Shown here piece by piece: positions 25,811 through 26,999 of a DNA stretch of 36,363 nucleotides. Origin of the DNA: Microcaldota archaeon (GTDB lineage: Archaea; Micrarchaeota; Micrarchaeia; Micrarchaeales; CABMGC01); NCBI GenBank assembly GCA_021817305.1, contig JAKAVL010000046.1, positions 1 through 36,363 of the forward strand, written 5' to 3'. Each line of letters opens with the position of its first letter. The stretch's first letter is position 1. Below the pieces are notes generated by a model, which had not been told where the DNA came from, made no database searches, and worked only from the letters and a program-made list of their open reading frames with translations. The position numbers and the translations under genes are program-made.

Positions 25811-26080
25811 TCACTGGTCCTTTATGGATTCCAGCAGGCTGAGTATGTTCCATATGACGGTGATCGCGGAAGGGGGCAGGTTTATGTCGTTGCTTACCTC
25901 GTCTATCTTGTACGTCGCGCCAGAGGCCCGTACCGAATAGCTCTCTTTGGCATCGAGGGACTTCCTCGCCTCGTCCAGCGCCGCCTTTACGTTCCTAGGC
26001 ACGCTGTTGTCGTTCAGCAATACCTCTATCTGCTGCCTTACCTGAGCTATCGTTTCGTCTATATTCTTGTCATCTGCCAT
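25811..26080 (-). CDS. UPF0147 family protein
   Basis: 89 aa; IEVLLNDNSVPRNVKAALDEARKSLD pattern. Confidence 0.85.
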   Translation of the reverse strand: MADDKNIDETIAQVRQQIEVLLNDNSVPRNVKAALDEARKSLDAKESYSVRASGATYKIDEVSNDINLPPSAITVIWNILSLLESIKDQ

Positions 26081-26093
26081 GCAATCACTTTTT

Positions 26094-26182
26094 CGGGCCC
26101 GGCGGGATTCTCAAACCAGTTTTTGAACCCGCGACCATCAGATTAGAAGTCTGCCGCTCTATCCAAGCTGAGCTACGGGCCC
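26094..26182 (-). tRNA. tRNA-Arg (anticodon UCU) with a 14-nt T-loop intron (plus 26108-26121)
   Basis: Minus strand GGGCCCG-TA-GCTC-AGCTTGGATA-GAGC-GG-CAGA-CTTCTAA-TCTG-ATGGTC-GCGGG-TTCAAA[AACTGGTTTGAGAA]T-CCCGC-CGGGCCC-G. Acceptor, D and T stems are perfect. No encoded CCA. Confidence 0.92.
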
Positions 26183-26928
26183 TCGCTGATTATTATACCG
26201 AAGTAATCTTTAATGGTTTGCATCATTCTTAAACCTATCTCATCAAAGCTTTTACCCTTGAGCTCCGACACCTTTTCGATAACCCTGGATGCGTCTGCTG
26301 GAACCCTGCCAACTAGGGGCGCGTCGGTCTCTGCGACGAGGCTCTCCGCGTCAACCGCCTTTATCACGCGCCTCAGCCTGCCAGAATCGAGCGGCGGTAT
26401 CGAAATTAGGTATCCGTGCTTCTCAGCCATTTTTGCATCGTCCTCGCTGCCTCCGAAGAAATGGAACATCGCCTTCTCGATGCCTTTCTCCTCGAGGGTC
26501 TTCAGGCACTCACCGAACATTCCCCTTGAATGTATCACAGCGGGAATGCTGAGCCTCTGTGCGATGTCCAGTTGCGCGGAGAATAGGCGCACCTGATCCT
26601 CAATGCTTATCTTATCCACGGCCTTGGTGTCCAGGCCGATCTCGCCTATCCCGACTATCTTCCGGTTCGCTTTTGCCATGCCTTCAAGGCTGTCCATCAG
26701 TTCCTGGCTGTGAAGCGTCTCTTCCGGCCCTATCCCTATGGTAGCAAAGACATCGTCTATGCGGGTCAGCCCCGAAGCGATGGCATTCGATTTGATGCTC
26801 CAGCCCGAGGTTATGATTGCGGCAACGCCATTCTTCTTTGATTCAGACACGATGGCATCCGGATTATCGAATAGCTCAAGATGGCAGTGGGCATCGACTA
26901 CGACCCCAACAGTACGGCTTTCTTTCAT
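26173..26928 (-). CDS. TatD-family metal-dependent hydrolase/DNase
   Basis: VDAHCHLELF, GIGEIGLD, PAVIHSRG, FHFFGGS, VAETDAP. ORF extends to 26958. Confidence 0.9.
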   Translation of the reverse strand: MKESRTVGVVVDAHCHLELFDNPDAIVSESKKNGVAAIITSGWSIKSNAIASGLTRIDDVFATIGIGPEETLHSQELMDSLEGMAKANRKIVGIGEIGLDTKAVDKISIEDQVRLFSAQLDIAQRLSIPAVIHSRGMFGECLKTLEEKGIEKAMFHFFGGSEDDAKMAEKHGYLISIPPLDSGRLRRVIKAVDAESLVAETDAPLVGRVPADASRVIEKVSELKGKSFDEIGLRMMQTIKDYFGIIISEGP

Positions 26929-26999
26929 TTGCACCACTGATGAACATCTAAAACGCACACAAGCCTTATATATTGTTATACAGGATAAGATACGATGTT

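Follow-up and report, generated by a model that had tools for sequence, protein, structure and literature searches.

The window, a stretch of 36,363 nucleotides, belongs to a draft Micrarchaeota MAG of 840 kb (57 contigs, 81% complete). On its minus strand, at 26094..26182, we found a tRNA-Arg(UCU) gene of 89 nt with intron, which was detected by ARAGORN, as tRNA-Arg(tct), and by the Rfam model RF00005, and which has orthologs in almost every one of 60 relatives. The location, strand, anticodon and T-arm given in the preliminary description agree with these results. All features of the gene listed below lie on the same strand. The anticodon TCT was placed by ARAGORN at 26145..26147, and both the sequence and the predicted fold show the T-stem to consist of GCGGG (26128..26132) and CCCGC (26102..26106). 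This stem closes a T-loop of 21 nt, TTCAAAAACTGGTTTGAGAAT. As had been claimed, removal of 14 nt, AACTGGTTTGAGAA, leaves TTCAAAT, the same T-loop as in intronless orthologs. Alignment to such orthologs (L049, L056) assigned tRNA positions 1–59 to a 5′ exon at 26122..26182 and positions 60–73 to a 3′ exon at 26094..26107, with the intron (26108..26121) between positions 59 and 60. Every stem is complete but for the anticodon stem, whose topmost pair (27-43) is a G-A mismatch. The Rfam tRNA model gave the gene 32.9 bits, just above the threshold, and misplaced its 3′ half, because of the insert in the T-arm. Two genes flank the tRNA on the same strand: a TatD-family gene (26173–26958), which shares the 10 nt at its 3′ end with the tRNA gene, and a UPF0147 gene (25811–26080), which starts 13 nt past the 3′ end of the tRNA. 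An ORF start close after the tRNA was seen in many relatives too, which suggests possible co-transcription.

We searched the 60 relatives with the 89-nt gene and read the resulting loci individually. We obtained 55 distinct orthologous inserts of 12–43 nt, all with identical boundaries between TTCAAA and T, so that splicing would yield TTCAAAT in each case. The two intronless orthologs read TTCAAAT, and the intron was also missing from the outgroup genes found and from those of some relatives. In the window, the exon strand UUCA (tRNA positions 54–57, 26124..26127) faces the intron strand UGAG (26110..26113) in a central helix, the intron strand being defined throughout as the four bases placed two nucleotides ahead of the 3′ boundary. 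With related introns taken as independent, which overstates the significance, 216 of 220 cells of this helix were paired over the 55 introns vs. 90.7 ± 6.6 in shuffles (maximum 114), and the inner helix totaled 185 bp over the set vs. 35 in shuffled introns (maximum 62). A register test, which is unaffected by this relatedness, gave a mean of 3.93 pairs of 4 in this register and of about 2.2 when it is slid by one. Furthermore, T-loop introns of tRNA-Lys(CUU) carry UUCA/UGAA in one genome (L322) vs. UCCG/CGGA in a second genome (L158), i.e., a compensatory double change. At the level of sequence comparison, boundaries, helix, register and compensatory change are the marks expected of BHB splice sites at 59/60. 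The shared insertion point and the maintained helix thus lend support to the archaeal tRNA intron that had been proposed at about this position.

The predicted fold of the window intron contains the helix UUCA/UGAG and a 3′ bulge AAU (26107..26109), which is unpaired in both the MFE and the centroid structure and holds the putative 3′ splice site between AA and U. The nominal 5′ bulge AAA (26121..26123), with the putative 5′ splice site between its second and third base, is an open loop here and not a closed bulge. In the MFE and centroid structures UUCAAA is zipped to UUUGAG, with A58–A59 paired with intron uridines and a 6-nt loop in the MFE, and the BHB register leaves an inner helix of 1 bp. 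Of the fold proposed earlier, the helix and the 3′ bulge were therefore recovered, but the 5′ bulge was not. The window copy shares with archaeal BHB-family introns the restoration of a canonical tRNA upon removal of the insert, a 4-bp central helix between exon and intron, and a 3-nt bulge at the 3′ splice site. The 5′ bulge closed by an inner helix, which characterizes the strict two-bulge BHB, is absent from it and present in the L033 ortholog of the same genus. As the inner helix is of about 1 bp, the modeled substrate is classed as a relaxed bulge-helix-loop rather than a strict BHB. The 16-nt intron at this site in a sister genome of the same genus (G004) can form a strict BHB in the predicted fold. 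Across the orthologous set, introns of up to 14 nt have 0–2 inner pairs and those of 16–24 nt have at least 3, with one exception; shortening of the intron and relaxation of the motif go together. It should be added that cuts at 57/58, 58/59 or 59/60 would equally result in TTCAAAT, while 56/57 would give TTCGAAT, and it is the BHB register only that singles out 59/60 as the probable exact cut position.

An EndA of 385 aa is encoded by the source genome (G000:C25). Its residues 4–385 align to residues 7–387 of 4FZ2 (E=5.6e-148), and it is 56% identical to ARMAN-2 EndA (4FZ2/9W2K). Residues Y233, H249, K280 and K158 match the published Y236, H251, K282 and specificity-loop K161 (PMC6379350). 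The three-unit single chain of about 390 aa, alignable end to end with ARMAN-2 EndA, as well as the catalytic Tyr/His/Lys and the specificity-loop Lys, are features of the epsilon2 type, to which this EndA belongs as judged from its sequence. This agrees with the link drawn in the preliminary description between non-canonical intron positions and ARMAN-type archaea with broad-specificity endonucleases. Relaxed-motif introns have been reported to be removed by epsilon2 enzymes (PMC4033280; PMC6379350; PMC12397907). A search of the 81%-complete draft genome did not recover RtcB. It is present in 275 of 301 Micrarchaeota, including five genomes of the same genus, and we therefore rejected a lineage lacking the tRNA ligase. 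We also considered epsilon2 EndA as the cause of the T-loop introns and found no support for it, since full-length homologs occur phylum-wide, even in families with few such introns. Its role toward these introns would be permissive at most.

The comparative data make it very probable that tRNA-Arg(UCU) is encoded here by a functional gene, apparently present in one copy, and that an endonuclease-type (BHB-family) intron of 14 nt splits its T-loop at 59/60. Excision of this intron by the broad-specificity splicing enzyme of the host is almost certain. The transcript would fold with the T-stem as the outer helix and UUCA/UGAG as the central helix. Epsilon2 EndA would then cleave on the 3′ side of A59, which lies in the open loop of the 5′ strand, and between the AA and U60 of the 3′ bulge, and ligation of the exons by RtcB would give the canonical T-loop UUCAAAU. 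The relaxed bulge-helix-loop would be a substrate of the kind reportedly accepted by epsilon2 enzymes.

Three other explanations were weighed and rejected on comparative grounds. The gene might be a decaying pseudogene or relic, with UCU supplied by another gene absent from the assembly, and a MAG that is 81% complete does leave room for a second copy. Yet the copy described here is the lone UCU gene found in it, and AGA codons are in use (52 in 20 ORFs of the window, or 5.1 per 1000 codons). Within the genus the exons differ at just 1–2 of 75 positions, while the introns vary in length and sequence, which suggests a constrained gene with an insert that can change freely outside the helix. The insert boundaries are under constraint as well, and one strict pattern alone recovers the gene with its intron in 58 genomes. 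We consider a relic highly improbable. Alternatively, the mature tRNA might keep the insert and have a larger T-loop. This draws some support from the predicted fold, in which the GCGGG/CCCGC stem and the remaining cloverleaf form with the insert in place. However, a T-loop of 21–50 nt is not expected to permit the usual contacts between the D-loop and the T-loop. Invariant TTCAAA and T flank inserts that vary from 12 to 43 nt, intronless orthologs have exactly the spliced T-loop, and the genome encodes a splicing endonuclease of the matching type; a retained insert can hardly be maintained against these observations.

An origin of the 14 nt in faulty sequencing or assembly has in its favor that the source is a draft metagenome assembly, and is practically negligible. 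Independent assemblies have an intron at the same place. Two of them are complete genomes, that of ARM-1 (AP024486.1), with 13-nt introns in both its UCU and its CCU tRNA, and that of Micrarchaeum sp. A_DKE (NZ_CP060530.1). In the tRNA-Arg(UCU) of the latter, Ca. Micrarchaeum harzensis A_DKE (L125), the T-loop intron is of 32 nt and the spliced form would read GGGTTCAAATCCCGCC. A same-genus genome (G006) has a 14-nt intron with 3 differences from that of the window, none of them in the central helix. The preliminary description had named a second intact UCU gene, combined with RNA data for an unspliced or silent locus, and an assembly error as outcomes that would speak against its reading; no second gene was found in the 81%-complete MAG, and the error is contradicted by the independent assemblies of relatives.

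Many more T-loop introns occur in this archaeal lineage. The strict UCU-intron pattern matched 58 of 164 genomes of the order and truly matched none of 137 other genomes of the phylum; the lone strict-pattern match outside the order (G105) was discarded as an intronless gene with a chance match downstream. About 22 genomes of the order, and 30 outside it, had a match to a UCU gene with no intron. A pattern for any T-loop intron was found in 147/164 genomes of the order and 40/137 others (2/301 for the reversed control); within the order, matches were confirmed to lie in tRNA genes for Arg(UCU), Arg(CCU), Arg(UCG), Lys(CUU) and Ala(GGC) and in those of the Ser type, and the remaining ones, including all those outside the order, are matches to the pattern only. 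In a named genome collection, the DNA pattern of gene plus intron was present in 55 stretches, whose titles refer to Candidatus Micrarchaeota, except for some labelled Marsarchaeota, Mancarchaeum or bacterium. The intron is also less isolated in the source genome than had been supposed, as three tRNAs with T-loop introns were found there. Besides Arg(UCU), these are tRNA-Ala(GGC), with a 59/60 intron of 37 nt and a 9-bp inner helix (L296, G000:C11:12224-12273), and tRNA-Ser(GGA), with a 59/60 intron of 23 nt and a second intron in the anticodon loop (L297, G000:C49:2492-2527). Neither of the two was listed by an Rfam scan of the source genome. The finding carries a warning for annotation, as a covariance search for tRNAs barely passes the Arg(UCU) gene and misses the Ala(GGC) and Ser(GGA) genes.

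In four relatives, tRNA-Arg(UCU) has a 12–13-nt intron at 37/38 in place of the T-loop intron (L161 in G034, L162 in G047, L165 in G053 and L167 in G016), indicating that the position at which this tRNA is interrupted is labile. The gene of G021 (L166/L266) apparently has both. Some other arrangements were observed in the group. A tRNA-Arg locus (L192, G004:C13:45340-45480) has a seeming tandem duplication of the anticodon arm (CCU and UCU) with an intron-like insert of about 30 nt, and such duplication is a possible route of intron gain. Several tRNA-Ser(CGA)-like genes (L299, L302, L306, L307) combine a T-loop intron with an apparent intron at about 30/31 to 31/32, on the 5′ side of the anticodon arm. 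In several tRNAs of the group (L027, L181, L184, L185, L158) the T-loop has TCC in place of TTC, which puts C at position 55, the usual site of pseudouridine.

Many of the 37/38 introns have in common a hairpin AACUUYU(U)...AAGUU followed by A-UCAARAA. The corresponding element is of about 28 nt and has the form AAACTTYTT-loop-AAGAAGTTT-n-ATCAARAA (L013, L018, L022, L026, L028, L047, L216-L265; e.g., G000:C16:649-674). Its last strand can alternatively pair with the 5′ strand of the hairpin. The exact pattern occurs 57 times, in 28 of the 60 genomes, and its reversed form not at all. Copies are located in 37/38 introns and in some of the longer T-loop introns, immediately after the 3′ ends of tRNA-Ala and of 16S rRNA, and in tandem in intergenic regions. 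The motif was also observed at the beginning of archaellin/pilin-like ORFs, directly before QSAMEYLM (L219, L228, L245, L247-L249), and in L219 and L247 it seems to read through in frame, as a K-rich signal peptide; coding convergence, insertion or an mRNA intron could each account for this. For the Ala(GGC) T-loop intron of the source genome, the matches to the Phe 37/38 intron and to the 16S flank each exceeded those of all 2000 shuffles. This resemblance makes spread of introns between tRNAs and positions plausible in the source genome, as far as similarity can indicate. The window intron itself is without such a family match: it lacks the AACUUYU hairpin and A-UCAARAA, and it scored against members of the family no better than shuffles, so that its derivation from the element was dropped as having no sequence support. 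A wider proposal would derive the introns in the T-loops and anticodon loops of Micrarchaeales tRNAs from a short, dispersed hairpin element, which spreads among tRNA genes and is located beside the 3′ ends of 16S rRNA and tRNA-Ala as well; the window intron would be a worn-down remnant of such an insertion. This proposal appears doubtful to us. If it were true, one strand with two possible partners might make splice-site formation switchable.

Comparison with known systems places the window intron, by its sequence features, in a known class of archaeal introns. Archaeal tRNA introns are 11–129 nt long, with medians mostly of 12–25 nt, 59/60 is already listed among their positions, and relaxed motifs such as HBh′ have been described (PMC4090602). 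The window intron shares with the 59/60 introns of that survey the position, the logic of the splice motif and the length range. The near-minimal length claimed for it holds insofar as 14 nt is short, yet it is ordinary within that range and relatives reach 12 nt. According to the passages of PMC4033280 and PMC6379350 that cite Fujishima 2011 and Hirata 2012, the epsilon2 EndA of ARMAN-1 and ARMAN-2 cuts relaxed motifs at various tRNA positions; these organisms are of the same phylum and have the same type of enzyme as the source genome. A known case from a different phylum, with similar introns across tRNAs and positions, is paralleled here by the Ala(GGC) 59/60 and Phe 37/38 introns, whereas the similarity of the 14-nt window intron to a shared family is undetectable.

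What appears to be new is the scale, i.e., the T-loop-intron pattern in nearly all sampled genomes of one Micrarchaeota order. Introns of the 59/60 type are richest in Crenarchaeota and Nanoarchaeota in PMC4090602, while here they are an order-wide trait in Micrarchaeota and span tRNA-Arg(UCU), Arg(CCU), Arg(UCG), Ala(GGC), Ser and Lys(CUU). The range of 59/60 introns is thereby extended across an order of DPANN archaea. The orthologous introns also provide a natural length series at one tRNA position, from 12 to 43 nt and from relaxed to strict motifs, in a group that includes cultured hosts and whose type of enzyme has been solved structurally, which makes the limits of broad-specificity EndA on minimal and irregular substrates directly testable.
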